NCBI GenBank assembly: GCA_021234155.1
Contig: JAJEKV010000005.1
Span: forward strand, 18,088,089 to 18,152,088
From: Isoetes taiwanensis
Taxonomy: Eukaryota > Streptophyta > Lycopodiopsida > Isoetales > Isoetaceae
Direction of reading: 5' to 3'
Length of the DNA stretch: 64,000 bases
The translations under genes were made by a program, and so were the position numbers. The notes under the pieces were generated by a model. That model saw only the letters and a program-made list of their open reading frames with translations, did not search any database and was not told the DNA's origin. Positions within the stretch are counted from its first letter, which is position 1. Each line of letters starts with the position of its first letter. Below are positions 3,943 through 60,150 of this stretch, in pieces.

Positions 3943-6024
3943 GAGACGGTTGCAACACAAGAGCTAGTTACAGCACTTGTGAAGCTCATACCGCTGTAGG
4001 AGATGTCGAGTACTCTCACAACACTGGCTCAAAATACTAAAAGCGGTGTAGTCTCCTTTATTGCATTGGTGGCCTAACTTGCTATGGCACCACTCTGTAC
4101 TCTTTTCTTGTACGGATGCAATAGAGCAATATCTTGAAGTGCCCCTATAATTAAGGGCATAATTGGTTGCCAATAATACAATGGCACCATGACTACTAAA
4201 GCTGTGTATTTGGCTTTAAGGCCTTGTGACGGATTTTACCTATGGTCCTATGTGGATTTAGGTAAATGTGGCCACATTGTGTAAAGGCCACAAAAAAATA
4301 TATTTTGGTAGATATAAGCAATATGCTTATGCTACTTGGAAGCGACATATTGCTTTTTAAAGATGTTGGTCTGCAAAAGACCTTCGAAAATAGTTAACAA
4401 TGGGAAGTATTGCAAGAAATACCAAACCTTGTACCTTAGGGTCTTGAAAAATTGTTTTGCTTAGTATTTCTAAAGCAAACATCATTTGACTAATTGTTGT
4501 ACCCAAAATATATGCACATGGGTTTTTGATTTTAAACACGAGTGCAACTATAGCTTTGTGGGGATATTTTGCAACAATTGTTGGGGCCAGGATTAAACCT
4601 TATCTGAGGTTGTTCGGTGGATCCTATGCACAATCTGGCAAGGATTTGAAAATGGCGCACAATTTAATTGTGGAAAACAATATTGGCAATTGTGGCAACC
4701 TAGTATACTTGAGATGCAATTAGATTGCATTAGAAAATCCTATATAAGGTGACATTTGTGTGGGAAAACTTGGTAGCCTATGCTATATTTTACCCCTGAA
4801 GCTGACATTTTTTGTTAAATGATATTATCAAATCCATTTGCATCTGGGGCTTTGCCCATCACACTTTGGTGCCACACATTTACATATTTGGCTTGATTTG
4901 CAAGGTAACCTTAGGGCAAATGATATTTTGGCACGGGTAGCTGGTGAAACAATTTAGCCAATACTATCTGAGAAAACAAGTTGCTTATTTGAAAGGAGCA
5001 ATCATAATCAGGTTGGACTTTATTTAGTCTCCTAATACAGTTTTTGGCTCACGATTTCTATAGTCTAGCCATAAAAGGTTCCATGTCTTTTGTTTGCACT
5101 AATGCATTCATCTGAGGTTAGGAACAGAACTGAATTTGTCTCTCTATAAAAGGAAGACCATGCCTTTTAGTATTTATTTAAAGGGGAGATGGTTTTTAAG
5201 ATGTATGAGTGATTATGATTCGCTTGTACATTATAACACTTACATCTTAAATTTTGAAAGCCTCTTTTGTCATTCTACTAAAGTAGCTTATTTTATTTGC
5301 ATAAGCGTGATTGAAGAAAGCCGTGAAAGCTTTTCGTTAAAACTATTTTTATAACGATATGATTATCATGTATACTCTATAATAAAGAATACATTTGCAA
5401 TTGATAATGATATTATCAGGTCCTGCAAATAATCGAGCAGACTTTGGCTCTCGTATTTGCATAATGGAGCTTCAAAACTTAGTTGGACTGCCCTCTTTTC
5501 AAGACATTGTCTAAGGCTTAAACTTAGGCGGTATTTGCAATTTTGAAACTAGAAATCATTATAATTTGGATGCACTATGTTTATACTTGGAATGCACCAT
5601 GTTAGTTGTATAAGTAGCATATCCGATTGCAGCTTATTGGATGTGGAAAAATCATTTACGTTATAATTCCATTTCTCTTTCTCGATTAATGGTTTCTCAG
5701 GGCAAAAGGATACAATTGGTGATCAGTGATAAACTGAGAGACCCAATGTACCTTTTGGCCCTTGCATCGTTACCGGGATTACTGCTAACGTTTGCATGTT
5801 TGGCTGCAGGTACGGGTTCTCTCCTCCAATTGTCTCTCCTTTGCTTTCAGGGAAGCTGTTGACGAAAAAAAGAATGGAATATTTGCACATGAGCTGGAAA
5901 CATGAACACTAGGATTATGATCGGCTTGGATAAGTATAATACCATACTTTCTGGTAAAGAATGAAATGTAAAACTATTTTTTATTTCTACTACACTTTTT
6001 GCTTTGTAAAGATACACTTTCAAA
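3943..6024. repeat. repeat body R, copy 1
   Basis: A non-coding body shared with 15,979-18,837 and 46,968-49,243. Relative to those copies it lacks about 780 bp at position ~4,935, corresponding to 16,967-17,757. It holds no recognisable protein domain. Short open frames such as 5,641-5,862 are not conserved between copies. Confidence 0.85.
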
Positions 6025-13734: not shown

Positions 13735-14470
13735 GCTTGAGCATGAGTAAGAGTGGCCCACTGTAGGGCCGTTAATAAGGGGCAAACTAGGCCCAAACTT
13801 ATTGAATTCTGGGAGGAGACATGGGATAGAGGGACAAACTAATAACCCAGTAAAGCACGCAGTTAATTGATCTCAAGTGACAAAGATGGATTAGATCCAA
13901 ATAGGGCCAAAGGTGACATGGGTATCTTGAAGTTTGTTCCAAGCCTGAATCCTTGTGGGAATGTCTCCAAAATAGCAGAAACTTCTGGCAGTAATGTGGT
14001 CATTGTGGCTGATTCTAATGTGGAGATTGTAGTCGACTGACAATGAAGAGGGACTCTAGCAATGAAATTCAACCAAATCGTTTGCTCGTAGTATTTATAC
14101 TTAGATGGTCTGAATTATCATAAGAGATTATTACCGCAAACTTTATATCCGGTTACAATGGTACGACAATTTTGATCTGTTTCATAAATTATTTAATTGC
14201 AAGAGGTATGATAGCTTTGGGTTGGCTTTTAAAATTACATTATTAATTTTCAAGATATAAATTTCGTGGGTAAAGGGGAAATGCCAAGAGAGTTCATAGC
14301 TTACACCGCTAGCATTAGTATTTCTTTTACCCTCCTTAGGCTAATAAGTGCTATTTGCCGCAGTAACCGAACTCTCTCCCCTCAAGACTCTTTTTGCATG
14401 GATGTTTGAGGAATGTGCGGTTATGAACTATTCATTAATTTTGTTGATACAATCCATATTGGTAAGTATT
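13735..14470 (+). pseudogene. relic of the SAP-like exon region upstream of the RT gene
   Basis: Homologous to 50,130-50,830. Shared stretches include GGGCAAACTAGGCCCAAACT against GGGCAGACCAGATCTAAACT, GATGGATTAGATCCAAATAG, and the block TGCCAAGAGAGTTCAT to the CAG|GTAACCGAGCTCTC-like boundary (14,358). The SAP-like frame is destroyed here by many insertions, deletions and stops. No reverse transcriptase follows; the copy ends near 14,580 against a Helitron subterminal block. It is an older, truncated copy. Confidence 0.7.
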
Positions 14471-15978: not shown

Positions 15979-18837
15979 AGACGGTTGCAAACACAAGAGC
16001 TGGATGCGACTTGTGAAGCTCAGTAGGAGAAAGACTTCACAACAGCTCAAAATACTAAAAGCGGTGTAGTCTCCTTTATTGCATTGGTGGCTAACTTGCT
16101 ATGGCACCACTCTGTACTCTTTTCTTGTAAATGGATGCAATAGAGCAATATCTTGAAGTGCCCCTATAATTAAGGGCATAATTGGTTGCCAATAATACAA
16201 TGGCACCATGACTACTAAAAGTGTGTATTTGGCTTTAAGGCCTTGTGGACGGATTTTACCTATGGTCCTATGTGGATTTAGGTAAATGTGGCCATTATTG
16301 TGTAAAGGCCACAAAAAAATATATTTGTGGTAGATATAAGCAATATGCTTATGCTACTTGGACTTGACATATTGCTTTTTTAAAGATGTTGGTACGCAAA
16401 AGACCTTCGAAAATAGTTAACAATGGGAAGTATTGCAAGAAATACCAAACCTTGTACCTTAGGGTCTTGATAAATTGTTTTGCTTAGTATTTCTAAAGCA
16501 AACATCATTTGACTAATTGTTGTAAACCCAAAAATATATGCACATGGGTTTTGATTTTAAACACGAAGTGTGCAACTATAGCTTTATTGGGGATATTTTG
16601 CAACAATTGTTGGGGCCGAGATTAAACCTTATCTGAGGTTGTTCAAAGGGTGGATCCCTATGCACAATCTGGCAAGGATTTGAAAATGGCTATCAATTTA
16701 ATTGTGGAAAACAATATTGGCAATTGTGGCAACCTAGTATACTTGAGATGCAATTAGATTGCATTAGAAAATCCTATATAAAGGTGACATTTGTGTGGAA
16801 AACTTGGTAGCCTATGCTATATTTTACCCACAGAAGGTGACATTTTTGTTAAATGATATTATCAAATCCATTTGCATCCGGGGCTTTGCCCATCACACTT
16901 TGGTGCCACACATTTACATATTTGGCTTGATTTGCAAGGTAACCTTAGGGCAAATGATATTTTGGCTTAGGGCATCTTCGAATTTTGCCTGCAGCTAAAG
17001 TGGGTTGGAATGGTAGCAGCCACGTAAATACATGTCGGGTCTCACAGATGGATCTCGGACAAAAGCAACGCATGTTGATGCTTGAGTTGAGCGACAAAAA
17101 CCCCTGGATCCGGATGATGTAACAACCGAATCTAGTCGGACTTGTGGGGATGCGATTTAGGTGTACCCACAGAGGCCTTTTCGGCCGGGCAAAAAATACT
17201 ATGAAGCCGGGTTTAGTCATTTTCGGCATGATAATAGTTTCATGGTTAGGCATAGAACCGATTTGGCATGCCTTTATCTCGCGGATACATCTTCTACTCA
17301 ATTGCATGGCGGCCGGAGCTACTATGGCCGACATTTGGCTTGTACAAGCCTTAAAGGCATTTCTCGATCATGCCATATTGGCGATTTTTGGGGAACAACC
17401 CTCTTATGAGCTTGGTGGGCTAAGCACGCTTCATGATCCGACTTCAAAGAAAAAGATGTAAGATATACATTTTATTGAAGGTCAACGGGCCGATTTGCTC
17501 TTAGGAGCGCTTATTACCATCAATTTGCTCGTGTTTGGAGCTTTAGGGTAATATTTTTACTCACGGCATAAATAGCTAAAGGGTAATTCATGATCATTTA
17601 CCACCATACTATAAATGCCAGATGGTGACTCTATTATGATTATTACGATACAAACTCCGTGTCTTTACATAGGACCGTACAAATATGATGTTGCTTCATG
17701 GTTTCTTCTTGATCATTGCTAATATAGACCTTGGGATTGAATGGCATGGATTTGGGTAGTCGGTGAAACAATTTAGCCAATACTATCCGAGAAAACAAGT
17801 TGCTTATTTGAAAGGAGCAATCATAATCGAGTTGGACTTTATTTAGTCTCCTAATACGCTTTTTTGGCTCGATTTCTATAGTCTAGCCATAAAAGGTTCC
17901 ATGTCTTTGAGCATCTTGCATTCATACAAAGTTAGAACAACTGAATTTGTCTCTATAAAAGGAAGACCATGCCTTTTAGTATTTATTTAAAGGGGAGATG
18001 GTTTTAAGATGTATGAGTGATTATGATTCGCTTGTACATTATAACACTTACATCTTAAATTTTTGAAAGCCTCTTTTGTCATTCTACTAAAGTAGCTTAT
18101 TTTATTTGCATAAGCTGTGATTCAAGAAAGCCGGAAAGCTTTTCTCGTTAAAACTATTTTTATCACGATATGATTATCATGTATACTCTATAATAAAGAA
18201 TACATTTGCAATTGATAATGATATTATCAGTCCCGCAAATAATCGAAGCGGACTTTGGCTCTCGTATTTGCATAATGGAGCTTCAAAACTTAGTTGACTA
18301 CCCTCTTTTCAAGACATTGTCTAAGGCTTAAACTTAGACAAGATTTGCAATTCTTTGAAACTAGAAATCATTATAGATTTGGATGCACTATGTTTATACT
18401 TGGAATGCACCATGTTAGTTGTATAAGTAGCATATCCGACAAACTTATTGGATGTGGAAAAATCATTTTCGTTATAATTCCATTTCTCTTTCTCGATTAA
18501 TGGTTTCTCGGGGCAAAAGGATACAATTGGTGATCGTGATAAACCGAGACCAATGTACCTTTTGGCCCACTACATCGTCTCACGGGATTACCGCTAACGT
18601 TTGCATGTTTGGTGCAGTACGGGTTCTCTCCTCCAATTGTCTCTCCTTTGCTTTCGGGGAATTTGTTGTAAAAAAAGAATGGAATATTTGCACATGAGCC
18701 TGGAAACATGAACACTAGGATTATGATCGGCTTGGATAAGTATAATACCATACTTTTCGGTAAAGAATGAAATGTAAAACTATTTTTTATTTCTACTACA
18801 CTTTTGCTTTGTAAAGATACACTTTCAATAAAAGTTT
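15979..18837. repeat. repeat body R, copy 2 (longest)
   Basis: Contains the ~780-bp segment (16,967-17,757) that is missing from copy 1. That segment holds a degraded frame on the plus strand (17,144-17,461 and overlapping 17,161-17,409). Part of it is conserved at 48,153-48,464, with SWLGIEP and EQPSYELGGLS readable in both. I do not recognise a domain. It may be an old coding remnant of the element. Confidence 0.8.
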
Positions 18838-19511: not shown

Positions 19512-19532
19512 ATATACAAGTTTTTGTACTAT
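19512..19532. repeat. 21-bp direct repeat, left copy
   Basis: ATATACAAGT, then TTTTGTACTAT. The right copy (25,906-25,926) has one mismatch. The two bracket the 6.4-kb unit between them. Confidence 0.8.
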
Positions 19533-37209: not shown

Positions 37210-38385
37210 TGTGTTAAATTTGGCAACGACATTCTGAATAGATAATCTACAGTACTCAATCTGACATTCCATGGTATTGTATCTCTCTTTGTGATATTAC
37301 AATGAGGTTCTTACAATCTCAAAGCTACATCCCATGCAAAGTAGACCATCTGTTAAAACTACATAAGGTAGAACATCAAAAATCAACGGAGTTCATATTA
37401 CTCAAGCATCATGGCGACGGTTATTGCAAATTGCCCATGCAAACATGTCAAATTTCCAGCAAAGCTATTTACAACAGAAATCACATTATTAAAAGCTAAG
37501 AAAGCATCCCTTCAATACATCAACCTTTTGAATGACTCTGTGATTTATCTATAAATTAACCTTGTACACGGCTGCGAAGAATAAAATGCAACTAAAACTC
37601 CAATGTAGGAAAGAAAAGATAGCATAAAGGTACTGCCATAATGACCTCCAGTTTGAACTGTTGTGGAGTGAAAGATTGATCACAGATAAAGTTGACACTA
37701 GACGAGAACCATTTGCTTCATGTTTTATCATCTACTATTCCAACATCAGTGGTACAAACATGTTTAATCAGAGGGCCTATGAATCTCTTCAGGTTAGGAT
37801 TTGAGCAGGGGCATTTAGCTAGATGACTATCAGTGAAAACATTCCTAGGTCTGTAGAATAAGCTTCTCAAGGTTGACGTATATCTCCACCCGAATGTTGT
37901 AGATCACTATTTATGCCGTACATTGTGAAGAAAACTGCTGAGCACATTTTTAAATGTGCTGGAAAAATCAATGTTGTCCACTTGCTTTGAAAAATCAATG
38001 TTGTCCACTTCCCTGTAAGTTCTAAGCTTTATCTGGTCGACAGTTCATGAAAGCTCCTTCCATTTATTCTGCCATTAACACCCACAAAATGGGATAAATT
38101 TATAATTTGAGAATAATTTGTAGCCTCTGTGGCCATACAAAGTTATAGGTAAAAAAGAGCACGCACTGCATTCACACTACTAGATTGAAACAAGTACTTT
38201 AATAAAGTATGTAATATTACTGCAACTTACTATTGGCAGATAACAGAGTTAATCAGCAACAAAAATATAGAGAAAATTAGGTGTCACAGAACATCCAGCT
38301 TAGACAAACTAGATTTTAAGTATATCCCTGTAACTACCCACATACTCTTCACATGATCTGTTAATTGACATATTATTTTGAGCAA
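37210..38385. other. no gene recognised
   Basis: AT-rich and downstream of the RPA1-like gene. AAAAATCAATGTTGTCCACT occurs twice at 37,965-38,010 as a short tandem repeat. There is no coding evidence. Confidence 0.45.
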
Positions 38386-46967: not shown

Positions 46968-49243
46968 AGACGGTTGCAACACAAGAGCTAGTTACAGCAC
47001 TTGTGAAGCTCATACCGCTGTAGGAGATGTCGAGTACTCTCACAACACTGGCTCAAAATACTAAGAGCGGTGTAGTCTCCTTTATTGCATTGGTGGCCTA
47101 ACTTGCTATGGCACCACTCTGTACTCTTTTCTTGTACGGATGCAATAGAGCAATATCTTGAAGTGCCCCTATAATTAAGGGCATAATTGGTTGCCAATAA
47201 TACAATGGCACCATGACTACTAAAGCTGTGTATTTGGCTTTAAGGCCTTGTGACGGATTTTACCTATGGTCCTATGTGGATTTAGGTAAATGTGGCCACA
47301 TTGTGTAAAGGCCACAAAAAAATATTTTTGGTAGATATAAGCAATATGCTTATGCTACTTGGAAGCGACATATTGCTTTTAAAGATGTTGGTCTGCAAAA
47401 GACCTTCGAAAATAGTTAACAATGGGAAGTATTGCAAGAAATACCAAACCTTGTACCTTAGGGTCTTGAAAAATTGTTTTGCTTAGTATTTCTAAAGCAA
47501 ACATCATTTGACTAATTGTTGTACCCAAAATATATGCACATGGGTTTTGATTTTAAACACGAGTGCAACTATAGCTTTGTGGGGATATTTTGCAACAATT
47601 GTTGGGGCCAGGATTAAACCTTATACAGGTTGTTCAGGTGGATCCTATGCACAATCTGGCAAGGATTTGAAAATGGCGCACAATTTAATTGTGGAAAACA
47701 ATATTGGCAATTGTGGCAACCTAGTATACTTGAGATGCAATTAGATTGCATTAGAAAATCCTATATAAGGTGACATTTGTGTGGGAAAACTTGGTAGCCT
47801 ATGCTATATTTTACCCCTGAAGCTGACATTTTTTGTTAAATGATATTATCAAATCCATTTGCATCCGGGGCTTTGCCCATCACACTTTGGTGCCACACAT
47901 TTACATATTTGGCTTGATTTGCAAGGTAACCTTAGGGCAAATGATATTTTGGCTTAGGGCATCTTCGAAATTTTGCACGAGCTAAAGTGGTCATTTGGAA
48001 TGGTAGCGAGCCACGTAAATACATGTCGGGTCTCTCACCGGATGGATCTCGGACAAAAGCAACGCATGTTGATGCTTGAGTTGAGCGGCAAAAACCTATC
48101 GGATCCGCATGTAACAACCGAATCTAGTCGGACTTTTTGGGATGCGATTTAGGTGTGCCCTGAGAGGCCTACGCCACGGCAAAAATACTATGAAGTCGGG
48201 CTTAGTCATTTTCGCATGATAATAGTTTCATGGTTAGGCATAGAACCCGATTTGGCATGCCTTTATCTCGTGATACATCTTCTACTGAATTGCATGGCGG
48301 TTTGGAGCTACTATGGCCGATTTGGTTTTGTACAAGCCTTTAAAGGCATTTCTCTCGACGCCTATATTATGGATTTTTGGGAACAACCCTCTTATGAGCT
48401 TGGTGGGCTAAGTCGCTTCATGATCCGACTTCAAGCAAAAGTTGTAAGATATACATTTTATTGAAGGTCCAATCGCCGATTTGCTCTTAGGCAAGATTAT
48501 TACCATCGATTTGCTCGTGTTGGAGCTTTACAGTAATATTTTTACCGGCATAAATAGCTAAAGGGTAATTCATGATCTGTTACCACCATACTATAACAGT
48601 TAGATGGTGACTCTATTATGATTATTCGATACAAACTCCGTGTCTTTATATACAGGACCGCATAAATATGATCTTTCGCTTCATGGTTTCTTTTCGGATC
48701 ATTGCTAATATAGACCTTGGGATTGAATGGCATGGGATCGGTAGTTGGTGAAACAATTTAGCCAATACTATCCGAGAAAACAAGTTGCTTATTTGAAAGG
48801 AGCAATCATAATCAGGTTGGACTTTATTTAGTCTCCTAATACAGTTTTTTGGCTCTGATTTCTATAGTCTAGCCATAAAAGGTTCCATGTCTTTGAACAA
48901 GCATCGCATTCATACAAAGGTTAGGAACGTAAATCGAATTTGTCTCTCTATAAAAGGAAGACCATGCCTTTTAGTATTTATTTAAAGGGGAGATGGTTTT
49001 TAAGATGTATGAGTGATTATGATTCGCTTGTACATTATAACACTTACATCTTAAATTTTGAAAGCCTCTTTTGTCATTCTACTAAAGTAGCTTATTTTAT
49101 TTGCATAACTGTGATTCAGTAAAGCCCAGGAAAGCTTTTCTCGTTAAAACTATTTTTATACGATATGATTATCATGTATACTCTATAATAAAGAATACAT
49201 TTGCAATTGATAATGATATTATCAGGTCCTGCAAATAATCGAG
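46968..49243. repeat. repeat body R, copy 3
   Basis: Nearly identical to 3,944-5,440 and to 15,980-18,250, and it includes the segment missing from copy 1. It starts at GAGACGGTTGCAACAC without the MITE and stops at GCAAATAATCGAG, where the RT-bearing segment begins. Confidence 0.9.
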
Positions 49244-49283
49244 CCCTAATATCAGGCCCTAATATATCAGGCCCTAATATAAT
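49244..49283. repeat. three CCCTAATAT units at the junction
   Basis: CAGGCCCTAATAT-type units, three in tandem, lie exactly at the border between body R and the RT-bearing segment. They resemble, but are not, the plant telomere repeat CCCTAAA. Confidence 0.8.
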
Positions 49284-49298
49284 CCACTTCAAACTGAT

Positions 49299-49371
49299 GG
49301 GCATAGCATAATGGTTAGACAACGAATTTGGACTTATAATCTATGGACTGGTTTAGTCCATAGAATAGGAC
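49299..49371 (+). ncRNA. tRNA-like sequence (pol III box A and box B)
   Basis: TAGCATAATGGTTAGACA (49,304-49,321) fits a tRNA D-arm/box A. GGACTTATAATC gives an anticodon loop CTTATAA, which would be UAU (Ile). GGTTTAGTCC (49,350-49,359) fits box B. The T-arm is extended into a perfect 9-bp stem, CTATGGACT and AGTCCATAG, around GGTTT. The acceptor stem does not close well. It is best read as a decayed tRNA or the head of a tRNA-derived SINE. Confidence 0.4.
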
Positions 49372-50138
49372 AGATAATATTGGTTTAGGGTCTCTTTTGG
49401 CAGGAGCTTTGGCAACCTTGGGACAAGGCTAATATGAATGGAGCATAAATTGCCTATAGCATTGCAGGTCCAAGTGAGCATCTAATAGTGTAACAAAAAG
49501 GTGGCATACACTTGCCCCAATTTGGTTATATCCTAACCCCTATAGTATTATTTGAGAATTGTAATGATGATTACAATAAGATATGAAGGATAGATATGGT
49601 TATGCAATTTTTTACCCCCTAGCATTTAAATTAGGGATTGGTTAAACTAATACTATGATTACAGGCCAAAGGTTGGTGGTAATTCAAATGTGCAGTTGTA
49701 GCATAGGGTATGTGTCGGGGGATGATAGGATCTAGGATCCCAAATGGATATGGGATTTTTATGGTGTAAATATGGACACAAGGTGTTGGTAACATATACT
49801 CGAAATTTGTTACAATAGTACCTACAAAGTTTTTTTCGCTAACCCTAATGTCAAAAAAAAGTAAACCCTAGCGATGGTGGCGTCTACGACAGCCTTGGGC
49901 TGATAGGTGCTGACGGATCCCTAACAAACCATGGATGACCTTTTGATTGTTTGTTACATGCAAAATATCGACAACTCGGATTGATCGAGACAAAAACAAA
50001 TTTGTTATGATCCTTTTCTTAATCTTCTTGTAATATTTGCTTAGAAACGTGATTGGCTTTGGTTTTCTCATAATATGGTTTAACCTCCATGCTATATAAT
50101 AAGATCGGATCCCTCTTCTATGAACACGATTTTTGGGC

Positions 50139-50490
50139 ATGAGCAAGGCAGGCGGGCGAGGGGGTGTGCAATAAAGGGCAGACCAGATCTAAACTCATTG
50201 AATTCCTTAGAAGAAATGGCTTAGAGCATAGTAGCCCGCAGCCTACTAAGGCTCAACTGTTAGAATTGTGCAGAGCCCATGGATTAGATCCAAATAGGGA
50301 AAAGGGTGATTCTGGAATTATAAAATTCCTCCCTAGTCTGAATGCATGTGGGAATGTCCCTAGATCTGGTAATACATCAAGCGGCAATGTGGAGTTTGTT
50401 GGAAAATTGAAGAAATTGAAGAAATCGATGATGGAGTGCAACCAAATCAAGGTTCCTGCAATTGAATTGTTTAAATCTTTGGTTTCCTAA
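50139..50490 (+). CDS. SAP-like exon upstream of the RT
   Basis: SAP motifs are short helix-turn-helix DNA-binding modules. The likely start is MSKAGGRG at 50,139; a G-run (50,159-50,163) then shifts the frame by one to CNKGQTRSKLIEFLRRNGLE, followed by PTKAQLLELCRAHGLDPN. The L-x3-L-x3-GL and K-x2-LLELC-x3-GL pattern is SAP-like, but only at motif level. The frame ends SLVS and a stop at 50,490. A diverged copy is at 13,735-14,060. Both copies are followed ~280 bp on by a conserved CAG|GTAACCGAGCTCTC boundary (50,761 and 14,358). Joining to the RT exon by splicing is an inference. Confidence 0.45.
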
Positions 50491-51691
50491 TCATTTAATG
50501 TAATATTCAAGGTTATAGAGGGTGTAGTACTACAGTCACGGTATTTGTAGGCATGGGGTTACCATGATTAATACAGTTCTGCATGAATTGCTCATTCGAA
50601 ATTAAGATGTAATGTTATAATCCATAGGCTTTTAACATATGGTAAGAGTATATTTAAGTTAAACTGTGGGTAAAGGGCAGAAATGCCAAGAGAGTTCATT
50701 GCTTACCTGTTAGCAGTAGGATTTTTTACCCTCTTAAGGCTAATTAGTTCTATTTGCTGCAGGTAACCGAGCTCTCTTCTCCTGCATCTAGCTCTGTTTT
50801 TTGCATGGAAGCATGAATGATTGAAGAATGTTTTTATGTACTACTGTATTTATATTGTATACAACGTTTATGGTAAGATTTTGATCCCTTCAAGTATAAT
50901 TATTCAACGGAGTAACTGTATGGTAAACTCTTAATCCTTTTTGTGTATTGGTATTTTGAATATTATGGCTGTTTTTTACTGCTTGGTAAAACATGTTTGG
51001 AGCACCTTGAAGTAATTTATGGTAATATAATTATGGATCTCAGCATTTGGCTGCATGATCTCTTATTTTCTTATTCTGTTTCCATATTTGCTTACTTTTT
51101 GGTTCGTCCAGTGGTTTTTAAATTTGCATGGTGTTTTCCTGTTTAATTTTAAGGCTTTGGGTATTGCCCCTCTTTTTTGATCATGCTGGGATTTAACACA
51201 TCTGTTGCTAGTTTTACAGTTCTCTTCAACAGTTTATTCCAAATTGTTTTACAAGTTATTTTACAAGTTATTTAGCAATTTTATGGTACAGCATATTGCT
51301 TGTTGTGGATGAATTCCTTTTGCTACATTTATTTGAAAAAGTAAACATGTATCAAAGTAGTATGGTCAAGGTTAAATAATTGTATTATTAAATGAGTTGA
51401 GCTGGTCCTTATTTTTAGACTTTTGGTCTAAGGTTAAGCTATTATATGGTTACATGATCTCTAAGGGCTCCCTCTTTAGGGTCCAATAAATTCAGTAGTC
51501 TTATTTAGTTAGGTTAAGGCTATTTGAATGTCTAGTCAAGTAGAGGCTTGGTTAGGCCAGTCTATATATCTCCCCACTTTGGATCACTGGTTTTACTGGT
51601 GAAGTCCTTAGAGATCGATGTAGTCATTTATTTTACTTTACATTATTCTTATCCTAATTTTTATGGTTACTAATATGTATTCTGTTCTTTA

Positions 51692-52070
51692 GGAAGCTAG
51701 AGCTCAGAAAAGTAATACTGGTTTCTTCAAGCAACAAGATTCCAATCAACAAACAAATGCACTTTGTTTGGAGGGGTAGACCAGAGTGGCTTCCTGAGCT
51801 TGCTAAACTTGGTTACATGGGGCGGTATCTTAGCCCCTAATAAAAGTCTGGCGGTTTTGGCATGTGTAAAGTTGGTGGAGGTTCATAATCTGCTAATCTG
51901 TAAGGAATGCAATTTGAATGAAGGAGAAATTTCAGTAGTACTTTTTCTTGGGTTTAACAATATGCTGGGACTTGTGGCAAGTTTCAAGGATGCTGATTAC
52001 GCTAAGTGTCATGAGTTGATTATTGATGCATACAAGAAATTGCCCGATGCACATTTGGTCTGGCGATAAA
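51692..52070 (+). CDS. unrecognised exon(s) between the SAP-like and RT exons
   Basis: After a CTTTAG acceptor: EARAQKSNTGFFKQQDSNQQ, then with a frame change WRGRPEWLPELAKLGYMGRY, NKSLAVLACVKLVEVHNLLI, CKECNLNEGEISV and ADYAKCHELIIDAYKKLPDA. The compact, low-repeat residue composition suggests real coding sequence. No domain is recognised. At least one frame shift lies near 51,830. Confidence 0.4.
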
Positions 52071-52984
52071 AGGATGTGGTTGATCTTCGGCCTTCATCGA
52101 GGGGCTTTAAAGACGAAAAGCGGAGAACAATCTCAAGTTCACTTATACCCCAAAAGGCAAGGTTAGTACTCCCCTCTTGATAAAGTTAGTGAGCGGGGAT
52201 GCATCATTGGATAATTGTCTCGTTTTAGTATGGATGAAGTGGAAAACAATCCGGTTAATGTAATTAATTATCGAGGTTTTAATACCTCCATGTAATGAAG
52301 AGGATAATATCGTAGGTGTTTGAATCTTATGGATTAAAGGAACTAAATCTTTTTTAATTGTGGTGGATTCCCTTTAATGTCAAATAGGAATGTGGAGATA
52401 CATGCTTTGGCGGGCCAAGCAAACTCGTGGGCTAGCAAAATCTCGGTGTGATTGCTCCAATCAAGAAAGGAATCCTTTATTATGCTTGCCTGAATAACTA
52501 ATGAGGAAGTTACTAAAGCTGAAAGAGATGCTATATCTTTCACTAAAAATATCGAGAAAAGATTAATTTGAATCTACCTTTCCCAATTCAAACCACGGAG
52601 AAAAAATGTACTATTGGGACCGCCCTATATATAGGGCAAAAGGGACACATGGCAAAAACCCGATGAACAGAGAATAGACTTTTACTTGAAACGCATTTGA
52701 GGACTTATTGCCCTTTTTCAAGTGTAATTGTGACAATGTTACGGATGAAAAATGTGTTGATAATATCATATGGTTTGACCATATGGTTTGGTTCATGTTT
52801 AATAACTGGAGAAGATTTGGGTGAGCAAAGTTTGCGAGATGAGGTTTGCATATATATGTGAGATGGTTATCTTGATCCAATTAAGAAAGTTGTCATTTCT
52901 TACATTGGATATCGAAAAGTAAGGGATCTCGTTCTTCAAAATGACTCACAAAAGTTAGGCCGAGAATGAAAATTGTAACTTTAA

Positions 52985-53212
52985 ACTGGAATTTGGCAAC
53001 TCTAAGACAGTGGATATTATTGAGAAAACTATCAAGTCCAGGAAGTTTTTAATGGATCATTTCCATGATAATAACAGCTTTGGATATGCTCCTGCAAGGA
53101 AGAGAAACCAGAATTCTAATGCTACTGTCAGTGGTATCCTCAAACCTCCAAAGATCTTGAGAAATCAAGTGGGTACAGAAGTGTTAGCTGCAAATAAAAC
53201 AGGTAACTCTGC
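52985..53212 (+). CDS. probable penultimate exon of the RT gene
   Basis: NSKTVDIIEKTIKSRKFLMD, then HFHDNNSFGYAPARKRNQNS and GILKPPKILRNQVGTEVLAA, ending NKT at AAAACAG|GTAACT, a good plant donor. The next acceptor, TTTTAAACAG, opens the RT exon at 53,481. It is basic and Asn-rich, like a linker. No known domain was identified. Confidence 0.5.
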
Positions 53213-53480
53213 TGGTGCAGACAGCAGCAGTAATATTATGTTTTGAATATAGTATGGTTTACATACTATATACGGCTTATATATTTCTGAATGCTTGACT
53301 GTGCATGCATTGCATGTTGTTCAGGCCTTAGTGCCAATCTATATGGGATCTTTCCCAATTTTTATATGGGAGTTATTCCCCAAATTTTCTTTTTATGGGA
53401 TTTATTCCCAAATTTTGCTACTATATGATATTGAATAAAATATTTTATGTTGCTAAAGCATTGATATTGTTTTAAACAGA

Positions 53481-55471
53481 AAAGAAGAGTTCTTTGCAAC
53501 AGGATTGATGGAAGGATTAAACTACAAGTATTAAAGGAAAAAATTGATAAAAAGTATGTGCATCTTACCTATTTTTCCAAAGTTGTGGATAAAATCAGCT
53601 ATACTAGTGCTTTTAAAAGTGTTATTAGCAGACATCTTGGTAGTATTGGTTATGATGCATGGGAAAACACAACTTTCGGGTGGAGATATATTAGTAATCT
53701 TAAAGATATGTTCTATAAACCCAAAGTGGTCTTTACTAATGATGGTCAGCCAGCTTGTGTATGCTCTATACCAAGGTTGCAGAAATTTGTAGATCCAAGA
53801 ATTGGACATATCCGTACTACGGATATCAATATTATACATTGCAAGGGCTTGAGAAATTGGTTTGCACTTGGGCTAAATTACATCCCTGACTGTCCTTTTA
53901 CTATTACAAAGTATATGGAAGAAATTGAGATTACAATTGAGCAGTTTTTTCATGTGCACAGATTCTCATTCATGATTTTTGATGAACATACTATACAGCA
54001 ATGCAAATTGGATCTGATGAATGAAATAAAATGGTTAGCTAAGTTATTTGTGGAAAGCAATGCACAGATCAGGAAAAAATTCCTTATTGAGGATGAAAGT
54101 GTTATAAAAAATATGGAATGGTTAGTTAATAACCTGTATATTTCAGGGGTTGATAAGGCAGCCAACAATCCAGTGTTTATCTGCCCATTGCATATCAGAA
54201 TGGAAGCTAGTGTCAGACTTAATAGTAATGATTTTTGCAGCAGTACAATCAGTAAAGATCAACTCATTTTACAGGTCCAAACAGAGATTTGCAATCTATT
54301 GGGGGATGGACACATTGGTAGCTTGGAACTCCCGTACCTCCTTGGGATCTTTAAAGCACATAAGTTTGAATATAGATGGATAACAAATGCGCATGATACA
54401 ATTTTTTCCATCACTGCATCTATTGTGGCAGCTGGTTTGAACCTGATACTTGATATATGGCCTTCTATTTGCTTTGAAAGGTGTAGTAAAGCCAATATTT
54501 TCCAAAAAAATAATATTAAAGCTGCATGGGTAGTTAATTCTATATATGATGTTGCATGTAACATTCCAGCAAAAATCAATGATGTCTTTGTGGCAGACAT
54601 TACCAAATGCTATGAAAATATCCCTCTTTATGGGGAGTATGGGATCTGCAATGTGATGGAAAAGGTTAGTTTAATGGCCTGGAGTTTCCAAAGGAAAAGT
54701 CATTCTAGATGTGATATCTGGTACCAAATTCAAAGTAATGGTAAAATTACCATGGAATGGAAGAACAAAGCCCCTGAAAGTAAAGCATGGAAAAAGCTGG
54801 ATAAGGAACTCTTCATTGCACTGAACATATGGCTGCTTAATAATTGCTGGCTTCTTATGCATGATGGTATTTTTAAACAGGTTAAAGGTATTCCTATGGG
54901 GTTTGCTTCAAGCCCAGGATGGTGCAACTTATATTTGGCAGCACTTGAATTGGACTTTATTACTAAGCTTATTAATGAAGGAAGGCTACAAGAAGCTGCT
55001 GCCTTTAAGTTTACGTTCAGGTATATTGATGATTTACTCAGCATTAATAATCCTGCTATTAGAGGATTTCTTGGCCTGTTAAATAAAAATATAGAGCCAA
55101 ATATATATGACTTGGAGCATTTAGTCATCAAAGATGAAACAGTATATTGTAAGAAGGGAGACCTTATTGGTAGGAAAGTTGATTTCCTAAACATGTCTAT
55201 TGAAATTATGGCACATCATACAGGCCTATATAATACTATGAAGTTTGATAAAAGAAATAATCTACCTTTTAAGGTGGCAAGATTCATACATGCTACCAGT
55301 TGCAGGCCATATATTAATGCTTGCAATGTAATTATATCACAAATACAGCCATTGCTTTATGTGCACAACAATCCAATTCGGGCTGCTGCTGATGTGTTGG
55401 AACTTATGAATTGCTTCATCAACAATGGCTTCAGAAAAGATGATGTATGGTTTAAATATCTAGCATTATAA
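53481..55471 (+). CDS. Penelope-like reverse transcriptase with CxC motif
   Basis: A reverse transcriptase of the Penelope-like (PLE) group, relatives of telomerase RT. The exon opens after TTTTAAACAG (53,480) and is open for 663 codons. Counting from codon 53,558: CxC segment CVC at 67-69, followed by DPRIGHIRTTDINIIHCKGL; motif A VADITKCYENIP (Asp347); motif B GIPMGFASSPGWCNLY (444-459); catalytic FRYIDDLL with D491/D492; motif D DFLNMSIE; and the PLE C-terminal KFDKRNNLPFKVARF. All catalytic residues are present and no stop interrupts the frame. The CxC segment before the RT is what is known from PLEs that place their GIY-YIG nuclease at the N terminus (Chlamys/Naiad group). No convincing nuclease is seen here. 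The last residues (LAL and the stop) come from an inserted Helitron end at 55,459, so the true C terminus is lost or displaced. Confidence 0.8.
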
Positions 55472-55615
55472 CAGGGGTTTTTTTTCTGTTTTTGTACTGT
55501 TTTCTCTAAGGTTTTCATATGATTTGGTGGTCGTATTCATCCAGGTGTACTAAATAGTATTTCTAGAGTGCACCCTTTTGTTAGCCGTTGATTTTAGAGA
55601 AGGGGCAAATCCCGT
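55459..55615 (+). mobile_element. Helitron 5' end (TCTAGCATTATAACAGGGG)
   Basis: Preceded by ATA, in line with A|TC insertion, and followed by the family subterminal block (GGTGTACTAAATAGTATTTC, GTGCACCC). It interrupts the RT frame. The matching 3' end is probably at 60,131-60,150. Confidence 0.75.
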
Positions 55616-55804
55616 GGTGGATATCCTCCCATTATTTTTAGGGTTTTTCTGGTTCTAAGCCGGACGGATAAAAGCTAAAAAAGCTTTATGCCAATGACAG
55701 TGATAATTTGCAAAGTCAGCATGGTTGCCCTAAACGGCTATGCTGGCCCCAGGAGGGACGTTAATACCGCGCTTTCCTTGAGCACAGAATTACCGAGTTC
55801 GGCG

Positions 55805-55978
55805 ATGGAGGATTTCGCCGGAGTAGATTGCACCCTTTCGCTCGCAACTGCATCGACGAAGAAAGCTTCAGCTCTACAATTTTACCAGCATTCGATCGAA
55901 TCTTACACACCCCAAAAAAACGACGAGACGTGCTGCAGCGGCATGTCGGAAGCTGGAAATCTGCACATGTTTTTCGTG
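55805..55978 (+). pseudogene. possible HAN-type GATA factor, first-exon fragment
   Basis: Reads MEDFAGVDCTLSLATASTKK, then ASALQFYQHSIESY. The VDCTLSL-x-T-x-STK stretch resembles the conserved HAN motif (VDCTLSLGTPSTR) at the N-terminal side of B-class GATA transcription factors. The GATA zinc finger itself is absent. The exon could end at GTG|GTAAAT (55,978). It lies just inside a Helitron 5' end in the same orientation, as captured exons often do. The call rests on one short motif. Confidence 0.4.
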
Positions 55979-56186
55979 GTAAATCATCTACCATGGATAT
56001 ACTGTTTTGTGTTTGGAGGGTTTAGGGTTTAAGAAATAGGGCTAAGTTGTATATTTTGTGTGTTAATCCAAATGCTGGGCATCTTGAATGCTGGGCTTTC
56101 GATTCCATGCAAATAATAAGTTATGCAGGTAACAAATTTATGCGCTTTCAGTTTCAAATTTCCATCCATGAATGCCCTGCAACCCT

Positions 56187-56970
56187 TTACGGTTTAAATG
56201 GAAGAGCTTTATCAGACCAAATGCGCTGTCTGAAATCCATCAGATTCATGCCAGCTCCATCGGCATAATCAATGTCAGCATAATCTCCAAGCAAGAGAGA
56301 TGCCATAAAAGAACTTACTAAAGATATCCTCTCAGTGATATGGTAAGTTTCTGGTTGTTTCTCAAATATTTTCCTTATCTGGGGACCAGTGAAACCTTCA
56401 TATGCTCTAAATCCTGTGAGTTTGGCAACCTCAAGCGCTCCTCCCAATGCAGCTTCAATGGCTCTACATTGAGCACGGGTGCTGCTATCCATCCATATAG
56501 GTGAGTTATTGACTGAAAATGCATCCTGAAGTTGGTGAACAAGACTATCAGAATGTTTTAATTCCTTGAGGTCTTTCAGAGCGCCTTGCTTCCAATAAAC
56601 ACTCCCATGTTGTTGTCCACTACCTGAAATAGCCCTTATCTTTCTTAGCGGAAAAGATGCTCTCTGTAACTTGTCTAACACAAGCTCTAGAGCTGCCACC
56701 CACATAAGAGGAGGTGCTGTAACTCTGCCTTCACCACAGAGCCCTCTGTCAGCACCCCCTTTTGTGTTGTAATGAGGTAATTCTGTGTCAAAATGTACTG
56801 TTTCTGAGCCATGTATCCTAAGACCGGCATCAATGATAACTGCTTTGAGTGATTTGCCATTAAATCATTTGTTTAAAATCCATGAATACGTGTGCAAGGA
56901 AGAAAGATTTGCTTACTGTGTTGAAGAGTCCAGCCCAAGGAAAAGTGCATCCGATTGGGGACATGATCGA
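56187..56970 (-). pseudogene. xylulose kinase fragment
   Basis: Xylulose kinase (FGGY family) phosphorylates D-xylulose using ATP. On the minus strand exon 1 (about 56,970-56,917) reads DALFLGLDSSTQ and meets GTAAGC. Exon 2 (56,852-56,187) reads SLKAVIIDAGLRIHGSETVH, FDTELPHYNTK, LMWVAALELVLDKL, AISGSGQQHGSVYWKQGALK, SPIWMDSSTRAQCRAIE, AKLTGFRAYEGFTGPQIRKI, ERISLVSSFMASLLLGDYAD and DGAGMNLMDFRQRIWSDKAL, then stops. This is the N-terminal FGGY half, including the substrate-binding GQQHG and the DGAGMNLMD region; the ATP-binding C-terminal half is missing. The donor has one G too few, the acceptor reads AA rather than AG, and no in-frame start is seen. It was captured with its intron, so DNA-based capture is likely. 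Confidence 0.85.
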
Positions 56971-57076
56971 TCCACTAAAACGGAGGTTAATGATTTTATC
57001 TCTTAAAAGAAAGATGTGAGCATTAGCCGCTCGCAAAATCAGGTCTCTAAATTTATATGCTTTTTAGTGATTATAC

Positions 57077-57286
57077 TTACCATTGCAGGGTTCTCTTCTC
57101 GTTATCTTTAGGTCCTTTCCATGTTCTATTGCAGGGGACATTATTTGTACTTTTCAAAGGCTGGTCAGTCCTGCTAATTGAAGCAGAAATGGAAGGTGTA
57201 TTGCCATCATCCACAGGTGCAAGATCCGTATAGTATCTGGTTGTTGTATCTTCTTCTGAAGGAATCGGGCTTGGCAAGTCACTCAT
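57077..57286 (-). CDS. unrecognised exon with good donor
   Basis: MSDLPSPIPSEEDTTTRYYT, then PVDDGNTPSISASISRTDQP and NRTWKGPKDNEKRTLQ, followed by ATG|GTAAGTATAATC. It is acidic and Ser/Thr-rich. It may belong to the captured minus-strand DNA carrying xylulose kinase or to another gene. No domain is known to me. Confidence 0.35.
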   Translation of the reverse strand: MSDLPSPIPSEEDTTTRYYTDLAPVDDGNTPSISASISRTDQPLKSTNNVPCNRTWKGPKDNEKRTLQW

Positions 57287-57591
57287 GAATAGGGCAGAGG
57301 CATATTATATTATAATCCAGCCACTATCACACATGGAAATGCTGGATTAGAAAATTCTATTATCTCATTTATGGTGATTATTTATAATTCTATTGCTCCT
57401 CTTTAGAGAAATTTTACTTTGAATATTTGCAATATCTTTTTCCTACTACCTCCATATGGTTCTAGCTTTGCATATTCTGCCCGACCTAAATTTGGTCAAT
57501 GAGACTAGTGATGGTAGAAACATGCCCTTTATTTCTAGTAAGGTCATTGCAACTACTTAAATTGTCTATATCTACACCCCTACACCATCTT

Positions 57592-58021
57592 TAAGGCCCC
57601 GAAGGGGCCAAAATTTTTTTTAGTTAACACAAACTATTAACATATAACTAACATTATTAACACAAACCATTGCATTTGACACATTTAAATTAAAATCCCC
57701 CTTAAACCCCCTTTGGTTTGGGTGCATATTCACACGGGGGGTTACGTAGGGCAGCGAGAGCCTCAAAAAATGTACAATACATGTACAAAATTAACACCAT
57801 TAAGTACATTGTCTCAAACCTTATAGTATTTTGCAAACCTTAATATACAGTATACAAAAACTTGTACATGCATACCCCACAAACGAGGATCGCTATGTAT
57901 GGTCCAGATCTTGGAATAAAGGGCAAAATATGCCCATCCAAGGCTCGTTCAAGTAACCCCCCGCGGTGAATATGCACCCAAACCAAAGGGGTTTAAGGGG
58001 ATTTTAATTTAAATGTGTCGA
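57592..58021 (+). mobile_element. MITE with GGCCCC hairpin
   Basis: The hairpin GGCCCCGAAGGGGCC with AAAA and T8 at 57,596-57,620 is followed by a MITE copy with both terminal repeats (CATTTAAATTAAAATCCCCC on the left and the complementary GGGGATTTTAATTTAAATG on the right). The outer right end is cut at TGTCG. Confidence 0.85.
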
Positions 58022-58840
58022 TATGATATCGCCAATTGTTATGTTTGAGCTTTTTACAAATCCAAATCAGCATGAGGTTTTGGTCTGCTTATTATGGACT
58101 AGTCTGTGTACTAAGGATCAAGATAATTGGTCTGCTTATTTGGAACGGAATACATAGATATTATATCAGAAGCATCTTCTGGTAATATGGAAGGTTTTTT
58201 GCCAGCATTTTGTAATAGCTGATCACTAGGATGTTATTGACAAAAGATACTAATTTGATATGAGAAATATGTTACATTTTTGTGATTCTTTGGATATATA
58301 GGGTTAGTAGTATGATCATATCTGACTACAATTTGGTTTTTGGTTCATATTAGCCTTATGTTGACTAGTAAAGGTTCAGTGGACCTCAATTATAGTTTGT
58401 TTCAGCCAATGGCTTGCATGGATATAGGTTGAATATAAAACACTTAAGGTGATTCTCTAAGGCAGTAATAGAGGTTATATACATGGTTAATTGGTCTTGA
58501 TTTGATTTAATTTACTTGGCAATGGAATACTTAACATTGAAACCCCATTCTTTATATTTTTTTTGATAAGTCATTCCTTTTGATTCTGTTTTGATTATAT
58601 TTTAAGGATCCTAGGATAGCAGTAACAAATGTATGATGAATAATAAGATAAATCCTGTAGGAGGTATTCCTGTGACAACCAGACTAAATATCAAGATATA
58701 AAGGCAAAGCAAAAAGCATTGATATTATAGATATAAAGTGGATAAAAACAACAAAAGATTAAGCCAATTGTGATAAATAATTGGCTCATGGACAATATCT
58801 TAACATAAGGTAATCATATGTTCCTTTTTTTTGGAAAAAA
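58022..58840. other. no gene recognised
   Basis: AT-rich sequence between the MITE and the B3-like gene. No coding or RNA evidence. Confidence 0.45.
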
Positions 58841-58843
58841 AAG

Positions 58844-59746
58844 CTAAGCCTTGTTCTTCCGAACGCGGTGTAGTGCAGCACCTTTCAGGATCTTCATATC
58901 CCACTCTAGTTTGTTTCCATTATAAGTAAATTCAAGAACATCTCCAAGGGTTAAACCAAACAATTTCTTAAAACTGTTCCAACCCACTCCTAGGCTGACT
59001 ACGCTACTTTTGGCTGAGGGGACTCTTTTGGTTTTCGGTCCAAGAATCACAACGCAGTATATCCCCTTGGTGGACTTCGCCACTTGTTTTCATTCTCTAG
59101 TACCTAGTAATAATAAAAAAATCTCTACTGAGAACCTTAGCACAATGCATGGAATTTAAAAATATAAATATACCAGGCCTCGGTTTATATTGGCTCTGAG
59201 TAGTGCGACACGAAATGGTTTATGAGATGGTGGTTCATCTTCGTCAGAAATGTCATCATCGGATGTATCTAGTTCGCTACATTTGACGGGTTCAGTAGCA
59301 CCATGCTGATTTTTACACACCGCCGATTCTTAGTAGGCTTCTTTGTGGATTGGAACTTCAAGTTGCCGATTACCAATAGGTTTCATAGCGATAGTTTCCA
59401 TCGCAGTCACAGGCGATTAAGCGAGTCCCATGGTTAGACAAACTACATAAAAGTGCGGTCCCTTCTACCATGTTGTTTCCGCCGAAATGACTCCCGGCCT
59501 TGGTGAAGAATGTTGACCACCCACGGTGGCTATATATATGGAATACTCCTTCGATTTGGTCCCATGCCAACAAATATCTCGATCTCGGCGAGCAATACTC
59601 CCTCGGCTTCTGAAAAATCTCGATTACGGTTAAGACTTATATCTCTATAAAGGAAATAGTCATGAAAGAATGTATCGTTTTTTTTTTTTTTTTTGCTCAC
59701 CAAACAAATGACCGAACTTGACATCTACTAAAAACAACATCGCCAT
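58844..59746 (-). pseudogene. two-domain B3-like gene, paralog
   Basis: Same plan as the gene at 28,320. Exon 1 (59,746-59,723) is MAMLFLVD with a GAT|GTCAAGTTCGG donor, almost identical in the intron start. Exon 2 (from about 59,608) reads AEGVLLAEIEIFVGMGPNRR, HRGWSTFFTKAG, NNMVEGTALLCSLSNHGTRL and CDCDGNYRYETYW. An acidic linker DTSDDDISDEDEPPSHKPFR runs to about 59,180. Exon 3 (59,083-58,844) reads VPSAKSSVVSLGVGWNSFKK, LFGLTLGDVLEFTYNGNKLE and WDMKILKG. An extra GC before GTTGTGATTCTT (~59,053) shifts the frame near the start of exon 3, and a shift follows TYW. It lies inside the Helitron that starts at 55,459. Confidence 0.6.
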
Positions 59747-59975
59747 AGCCCGAAAATAGGAAGGAAATATGGACTTGGAATGTTGAAAGGCGGCTTCGGC
59801 CGGGAAATAGCTTATAAAATGAAGATTTATTAGGATTTAATGTAATTATGATATATCTACTCTATTTATTGCTTGTGTAAGGCCTATTTGTAAGGCCTAA
59901 GATGGTACCATCATTGTTAGTAATTAATTGTTGGGTATTATCTTATTCTAAATTTTCTTTATCACTACTAGTTTT

Positions 59976-60150
59976 TTTTAAAAAAACTCCACCATTGGCT
60001 CATATAACCCTCTATAATCTATTCCCTTTGGTTTAGGACCATTTTTAACTTTTAGTTGGCAGGAGGGTCCCTTTGCTAGCAAAGGGATCCTCCAATCCCT
60101 TTTGTTAACATATGGGACCTTATCTGCCTTCCGGTAGGAGGTAGGAATAT
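59976..60150 (+). mobile_element. Helitron-like 3' end with palindrome
   Basis: A 32-bp palindrome at 60,062-60,093 (arms GGAGG-G-TCCCTTTGC and GCAAAGGGA-T-CCTCC). It is followed by CTGCCTTCCGGTAGGAGGTA at 60,124-60,143, a diverged version of the terminal hairpin seen at 2,390, 12,099 and 19,460. AT-rich target sequence comes next. It is the likely end of the element starting at 55,459 (about 4.7 kb). Confidence 0.55.

Follow-up and report, generated by a model that had tools for sequence, protein, structure and literature searches.

A probable Penelope-like retrotransposon with predicted introns, covarying RNA folds and ends at TA repeats in the genome of Isoetes taiwanensis

Athena Penelope-like elements (PLEs) carry introns, and a CxC motif and a GH...D segment before the reverse transcriptase (RT) are typical of the PLEs of the Naiad/Chlamys group. 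Among endonuclease-deficient PLEs (EN(-) PLEs), which are known from Selaginella and conifers (PMC9033089, PMC12477314), the Terminons are described as having a 3'-terminal RNA fold that exposes short repeats able to pair with exposed telomeric repeats (PMC6431247). In the anole Poseidon PLE (PAc), reverse transcription starts internally, in structured RNA downstream of the start codon (PMC11167929). Here, we describe an element in a stretch of 64,000 nucleotides of Isoetes taiwanensis DNA (contig JAJEKV010000005.1, positions 18,088,089 to 18,152,088; referred to as the window), the RT exon of which had been attributed, on reading the letters, either to the PLEs with an N-terminal GIY-YIG endonuclease or to a domesticated gene. 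The RT exon probably belongs to a multi-copy Penelope-like retrotransposon that has no recognisable endonuclease and is sited at (TA)n microsatellites where its edges are readable. This degree of confidence applies to the whole explanation taken as one claim, comprising a PLE, three exons, their splicing, a start of reverse transcription within intron 1 and a switch at an RNA fold designated b1. The closest known group is that of the EN(-) PLEs.

The three exons and their family

The RT frame of the window was open at 53,465-55,471 (668 codons from stop to stop) and contained motif A (ADITKCYENIPL), motif B (GIPMGFASSPG), motif C (YIDD) and a KRNNLPFKVARF segment, as had been noted; as an exon, it proved to be incomplete, the relatives being about 25-30 codons longer (683-703 amino acids in 18 aligned relatives) and the codons missing from it being located at about 58,020-58,075, past a 2.56-kb insert. 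The CVC followed by GHIRTTDINII, which had also been pointed out, is present in the window, and both cysteines together with GH.RT.D were invariant in all 19 aligned sequences, with the window included. The RT was conserved from the first codon of the exon onward, and the acceptor before it, already judged to be good, was found to be conserved in the form AACAG/AAAAGAAG or CAG/ATCAAAAG (a slash marks the splice junction) and in phase 0 with the RT in 15 of 15 copies, again including the window. The motifs in the RT are PLE-like. Pfam RVT_1 was matched weakly by all 19 RT sequences, NCBIfam and PHROGs profiles gave weak RT matches only, and a PDB profile search found no relative of the RT. Scans of viral_contigs and genome_contigs found no relatives of the RT, and that of viral_contigs found none of exon 2. 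AlphaFold modelling of the window RT alone resulted in a mean predicted local distance difference test score (pLDDT) of 32.9.

A search of the genome (1.66 Gb; a single genome) with the RT protein gave 67 scored matches, the best of 4,620 candidates, with identities of 58-100%, and 57 of them were stop-free, so that the RT is beyond chance. With the RT of a distant member as the query, 65 of 4,640 candidates were scored (60 stop-free), and with exon 2, 83 of 3,535 (72 stop-free). Three exon 2 places outside the list of RT matches were inspected: two of them (L061 and L062) adjoin an RT in pieces, and the third (L063) has none within 3 kb. Score decided which copies were compared, and the reading of long flanks covered 14 copies and the window. 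The ratio of nonsynonymous to synonymous substitution rates (dN/dS) was 0.05-0.19 for the RT in 11 of 14 pairs (three were saturated and several more had dS >1), 0.05-0.11 for exon 2 in all 7 pairs and 0.17-0.21 for exon 1 in all 4 pairs. With values well below 1, the family is under purifying selection, and the earlier suggestion of recent activity or constraint agrees with these values and with an identity of up to 99.2% between the direct repeats described below.

In most copies, the exon 1 sequence is M(S/T)K.GRPEGA.NKG.TR..., with QPNQ/GT at its end. The SAP-like exon of the original prediction was found to be an exon of this same element, whereas its assignment to SAP is weak, because the Pfam SAP match, obtained for 5 of 8 exon 1 members with a best E of 0.0045, falls short of the curated cut-off. 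Matches of exon 1 in the PDB (designed beta-trefoil proteins with E down to 1.2e-5, and RBL4 with 2.9e-4) were read as chance. In intact near copies, exon 2 is open over about 500-520 amino acids, unlike that of the window, which is frameshifted, and no credible Pfam or PDB relative was found for it. Its acceptor was in phase 0 in 13 of 15 copies (out of phase in L010 and not found in the window), and the exon 1 donor was so in 12 of 15, in a search that demanded an intact frame. This donor is weak, with neither GTAAG, GTATG nor GTGAG at any of the 12 found. By its conserved splice sites and phases, the element may have retained its introns, in line with the predicted identity as a Penelope-like element with introns.

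The manner in which exon 2 ends bears on how the RT may be expressed. In one subclade, it ended in F-stop in all 15 unbroken copies (L013 and L026 were broken earlier), and a GTAT donor-like site lay 0-8 nt past the stop in each of the 8 copies read, the window having ATAT instead. In 6 of 10 copies of the other subclade (L028, L030, L031, L032, L036 and L037), ..TG/GT would be joined to A followed by TC or TT, creating TGA across the junction, and in the other 4 (L033, L034, L035 and L038), exon 2 was closed otherwise. The frame of exon 2 is thus closed ahead of the RT at every junction read, and therefore the simplest reading is alternative splicing, in which exon 1 would be joined to exon 2 for ORF1 (open reading frame 1) and to exon 3 for a SAP-RT protein. 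A search of the genome for the exon 1-exon 3 junction gave 5 matches vs 10 in the reversed control, none of them with the exon 3 start of the element; the exon 1-exon 2 junction pattern gave no match in the genome or in the control, and this pattern fits the starts of L017, L028 and L030, not those of L031, L032 and the window's subfamily.

Other accounts of the coding part were weighed against this evidence. A single polyprotein of exon 2 and the RT, with exon 1 upstream, could be made through the donor proposed at 53,212, where a GTAAC donor-like site precedes the good RT acceptor; nevertheless, the relatives do not conserve this donor, which is also in the wrong phase for the RT exon, and the stops closing exon 2 in both subclades likewise argue against a polyprotein, which we consider very improbable. 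It is also unlikely that the RT is translated from an mRNA of exons 1, 2 and 3 by termination-reinitiation or from a non-AUG start, rather than by skipping of exon 2. In most of the copies read, exon 2 has its stop at the junction or no more than about 10 nt from it, and near-cognate codons are close to it in some, but Met occurs in at most 7 of 19 sequences at any column of the first 100 RT codons, and both the conservation of the RT from its first codon and the phase-0 donor offered by exon 1 speak for skipping. As for the identity of the RT, its frame standing open amid decayed DNA and its introns would suit a domesticated single host gene, but the dozens of dispersed copies, the direct repeats and the TA flanks rule this out, leaving it next to no probability. 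A Naiad/Chlamys PLE with a missed N-terminal GIY-YIG endonuclease, such as a diverged domain inside exon 2, would accord with the CxC and the GH.RT.D segment that precede the RT core and with a conserved exon 2 of unknown fold 5' of the RT. Membership in that group, as first proposed, is nonetheless unsupported because no GIY-YIG domain was found: Pfam detected none among 17 exon 2 members and none in the aligned exons 1 and 3; hhalign of exon 2 with one GIY-YIG protein, made without a positive control, gave 17 columns and a probability of 0.5%; and of at least 121 GIY-YIG matches in the genome (150 scored of 263 candidates), the nearest lay 85 kb from the listed 67 RT copies. Exon 2 also appears to be a separate ORF unfused to the RT, and we regard a missed endonuclease of this kind as quite improbable. 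The 5' region, compared in 7 copies, showed no conserved frame, and a conserved coding exon there was rejected. GIY-YIG domains elsewhere in the genome were seen at L047-L050; those at L047, L049 and L050 adjoin a helicase-like frame that is presumably of the Helitron type.

RNA folds and a recursive-splice-like site

Intron 1 contains two conserved RNA folds, b1 and b2, and a third, b3, lies at the 3' end of the element. In b2 (15 sequences), six helices were found with 96.5% of cells paired, and two-sided changes occurred in 29 of 53 pairs against a shuffled mean of 15.8, a value reached by 0 of 500 shuffles and falling to at most 11 when the structure was slid, although an advantage over slid versions follows from its derivation from the same alignment. 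Within it, UAUAU was invariant in 15 of 15 sequences and lies in an unpaired joint of 21 columns. In b3 (14 sequences, with L027, which is nearly identical to L018, omitted, L028 added by hand, and L016 and L031 outside the alignment), two-sided changes were found in 9 of 28 pairs, compared with a shuffled mean of 3.4 and 0 of 500 shuffles reaching it. In b1 (15 sequences), 96.3% of cells were paired and the covariation score was reached by 0 of 500 shuffles; support for this fold is moderate. Rfam gave no match at the places of b1, b2 and b3, and scanning the window and 10 further loci with it revealed no hammerhead ribozyme. Weak Rfam matches to microRNAs, located on TA arrays or below gathering scores, and to RNase P (53,065-53,284; 20.5 bits vs a gathering score of 97) were rejected. 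The distance from the RT stop to b3 was about 2 kb in the window (58,076-60,051) and in L011 and was short in L015-L018, and several copies related to the window and L011 showed no b3 within the stretch read.

In 14 of 15 copies, the sequence TTTGCTGCAG inside b1 runs straight into GTAAC (the site is disrupted in L031), so that a 3' splice site immediately abuts a 5' splice site, and a GGTAAG donor follows 87-126 nt downstream, also in 14 of 15 (L016 has GTAAAT); the stretch between them is otherwise poorly conserved across subclades. In the fold of b1 obtained from alignment A4, CAGGUAA is paired with UUACCUG, the latter having the same letters as the 5' end of U1 small nuclear RNA. A masking switch at this site is our hypothesis. 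Recursive splice sites are described as a 3' splice site set directly against a 5' splice site, with a short exon downstream that has a donor of its own, the recursive-splice (RS) exon (PMC6224609). The b1 site shares the adjoining splice sites and the putative short downstream exon with a donor, and it differs in its setting, within the intron of a retrotransposon and enclosed by a conserved RNA fold. An ordinary in-frame coding exon was rejected for the stretch, which has in-frame stops in 13 of 15 copies (not in L014 and L032) and varies in length.

Ends at TA repeats and a proposed cycle

Direct repeats, or pseudo-long terminal repeats (pLTRs), were present in 8 of 14 stretches, with identities of 90.9-99.2%; that of L017 measured 2.49 kb with 98.55% identity. 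The left edge was next to a TA array in L010, L017, L028, L032 and L036, and that of L011 follows the b3-(TA)n of another unit. The right repeat of L017 stops inside b2 at ..CAGTCTATATAT and is succeeded by a TA-rich flank, whereas its internal copy goes on with CTCCCC. Ends at UAUAUA/(TA)n of this type recur in the genome. A pattern of b2 joined to a long TA stretch had 17 matches vs 0 in the reversed control, and the 5' half of b2 was upstream in all 17 when these were fetched and judged by eye (L077 being diverged). A shorter b2 pattern without the TA demand had 60 matches vs 9 in the reversed control, which a script sorted into 31 running into TA of at least 9 nt, 20 intact and 9 other, with the caveat that one of the intact (C1051) looks like chance and two of the other (C963 and C1064) look like intact variants. 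Six copies had an intact b2 internally and, 7.4-10.5 kb downstream on the same strand, a terminal b2 joined to TA. In 6 of the 17 right flanks (L067, L073, L074, L075, L078 and L080), the sequence continues as (TA)n-TACAAGT..TACTAT, a repeat that is also found at window positions 19,516 and 25,910 and seems to carry TA target arrays.

From these features, a cycle may be proposed. Exon 1 would be spliced to exon 2 to encode an ORF1 protein of about 610 amino acids, or past exon 2 to exon 3 to encode a SAP-RT protein of about 790 amino acids. The template would be unspliced sense RNA, since the start of reverse transcription appears to lie within intron 1: at the UAUAUAU in the single-stranded joint of b2, or else just past b3, the RNA may pair with a (TA)n DNA end and be copied from there, and copying through tandem or pLTR-bearing RNA may leave direct repeats as long as about 2.5 kb. 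The fold b1, enclosing the recursive-splice-like site, might switch the RNA between use as mRNA and use as template. As to how PLEs retain introns despite their RNA-mediated movement, a rotifer study (2013) describes an antisense template as highly compatible with intron retention, unspliced sense RNA still being possible (PMC3846280). A sense-oriented tail ending within intron 1 is suggestive of unspliced RNA, and, the start signal being intronic, a fully spliced RNA would be a poor template, which may be a reason for introns to persist. A further and more tentative reading, doubtful in our estimation, makes the element a relative of telomerase, in which the intronic UAUAUAU of b2 would act like a telomerase RNA template on (TA)n, and the recursive site hidden by b1 would decide between ORF1/SAP-RT mRNA and template; since b2 would pair with (TA)n DNA ends, an endonuclease would be unneeded. 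In either case, b2 and the TA repeats provide a defined RNA domain and target for testing endonuclease-free, telomerase-like priming, and b1 is a candidate RNA switch between splicing and templating.

The b2-(TA)n ends could instead be a result of recombination between the element-internal TATATA and TA microsatellites, both sides being TA-rich and microsatellites being prone to recombine. This is improbable in our view, because the 5' half of b2 is repeatedly joined to TA at one point (the converse junction of the 3' half was not searched for), several copies have both edges at TA, an intact internal b2 is kept in six copies, and the anole PLE is known to start internally (PMC11167929). Still, several points weigh against the proposed cycle. 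The TA ends could have arisen by microsatellite slippage or recombination instead of priming. The window copy ends at b3, not b2, as does L035 by its 3' flank, and therefore two end types need explaining. The b3 motif was in 17 of 30 copies and was not found in 13, the stretches of which may be too short or may lack b3. No pLTRs were seen in 6 of 14 stretches, the left edge of L016 has no adjoining TA, and that of L031 follows a b2 half of another copy. Two-sided changes in b1 were limited to 7 of 40 pairs, a number matched by 41 of 500 shuffles. The exon 1-exon 2 junction pattern was too narrow to cover the window's subfamily, exon 2 could hide a nuclease of a new type, and splicing, exon skipping and the choice of template are steps that we infer.

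The window copy and its comparison with known systems

The window copy (Table 1) is dead, with frameshifts in exons 1 and 2 and with the C-terminus of the RT displaced by the 2.56-kb insert. Its nearest copies are homologous over 49,271-55,456 and then from 58,018/58,020 to 59,947, the 2.56 kb between being absent in them. The end at 55,471 in the original prediction was consequently too early, the element extending from about 49,271 to about 60,145 by homology and the end of b3. Exon 1 was placed from intact copies, as the search for an intact frame did not find it in the window.

Table 1. Positions of the element and its parts within the window.
Feature	Position	Strand	Remarks
Whole element copy	49,271-60,145 (about)	+	about 8.3 kb without insert; homology to L039/L010, L040/L011, L041/L012
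Exon 1, SAP-like N-terminal module	50,139-50,451	+	frameshifted; weak donor AG/GTTCCT at end
b1, RNA fold in intron 1	50,665-50,787	+	15/15 copies used, alignment A4
Recursive-splice-like site TTTGCTGCAG/GTAACC in b1	50,750-50,768	+	junction 50,762/50,763
Putative RS-exon	50,763-50,872	+	in-frame stop; then strong donor GGTAAG 50,872-50,877
b2, covarying RNA domain in intron 1	51,457-51,615	+	closed by ATCTCTAAGG and CCTTAGAGAT; 15/15 copies, alignment A5
TATATAT in single-stranded joining region of b2	51,563-51,569	+	inferred internal reverse-transcription start
Exon 2 (ORF1 domain X)	51,693-53,246	+	frameshifted; stop TGA 53,244-53,246; acceptor placed from relatives
Exon 3, reverse transcriptase	53,480-55,456	+	open, C-terminus cut
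Insert splitting RT exon	55,457-58,019	.	absent from nearest copies
Displaced RT C-terminal codons	58,020-58,075	+	stop TGA 58,073-58,075
b3, 3'-terminal RNA fold	60,058-60,140	+	TA-rich flank after

The ends of the insert recur elsewhere in the window, and it contains a minus-strand frame of 225 amino acids (56,187-56,864) that presumably resembles part of xylulokinase; possibly, the insert is a transposon with a captured gene piece. The 5' edge of the element is abutted by another repeat (48,000-49,242, ending near 49,244), which is 90% identical to 17,010-18,246 and, in part, 94% to 4,936-5,438. At 13,768-14,452 (plus strand), there is a remnant of a second family copy, comprising a stretch like exon 1 (65% to L019) and a block like b1 (76%), and at 37,631-37,993 (minus strand), an RT N-terminal fragment of a more distant relative, 42-47% identical to the family. 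A TERT-like gene (L045) is present on the same contig as the window. A second TERT-like locus (L046, C1062:4065477) is AT-richer (GC content 0.316 vs 0.381 for L045), and its contig is perhaps a contaminant; an RT copy of the family also maps to C1062.

Among the titles listed in searches of an open literature library, none was on a TA-targeting PLE, which does not prove their absence. With the Naiad/Chlamys PLEs, the element shares CxC and GH...D before the RT and differs in that no N-terminal GIY-YIG was found. Its likeness to telomerase RNA and TERT, as an analogy only, consists in a structured RNA of which an unpaired, template-like part is complementary to a DNA end; the element is, in contrast, mobile, and a comparison of its RT with one exon of the TERT of the same genome, made without a positive control, gave no match. 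To PAc it is similar in pLTRs, tails, an internal start in structured RNA and AT-rich targets, and PAc differs in having a GIY-YIG endonuclease and a hammerhead ribozyme and in starting inside its ORF, at a site without homology to the target, whereas the start in our element would be intronic and TA-complementary (PMC11167929). With PLEs at large it has in common tandem or partial tandem copies with pLTRs, and the signature of tails and an internal start, which is a genomic signature only. To the EN(-) PLEs, it corresponds in having two separate ORFs without a known endonuclease domain by Pfam. Athena/Coprina and Terminons likewise have two ORFs without an endonuclease and head-to-tail arrays, and the Terminons have a 3'-terminal fold exposing a short repeat that pairs with the target (PMC6431247). 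The element departs from these EN(-) PLEs in that no hammerhead ribozyme was found in the window and 10 other loci, in that the junctions read were (TA)n or TA-rich, its target being a (TA)n microsatellite and not a telomeric repeat, in that its SAP-like exon is phase-compatible with both ORFs, and in that its start signal would be intronic.

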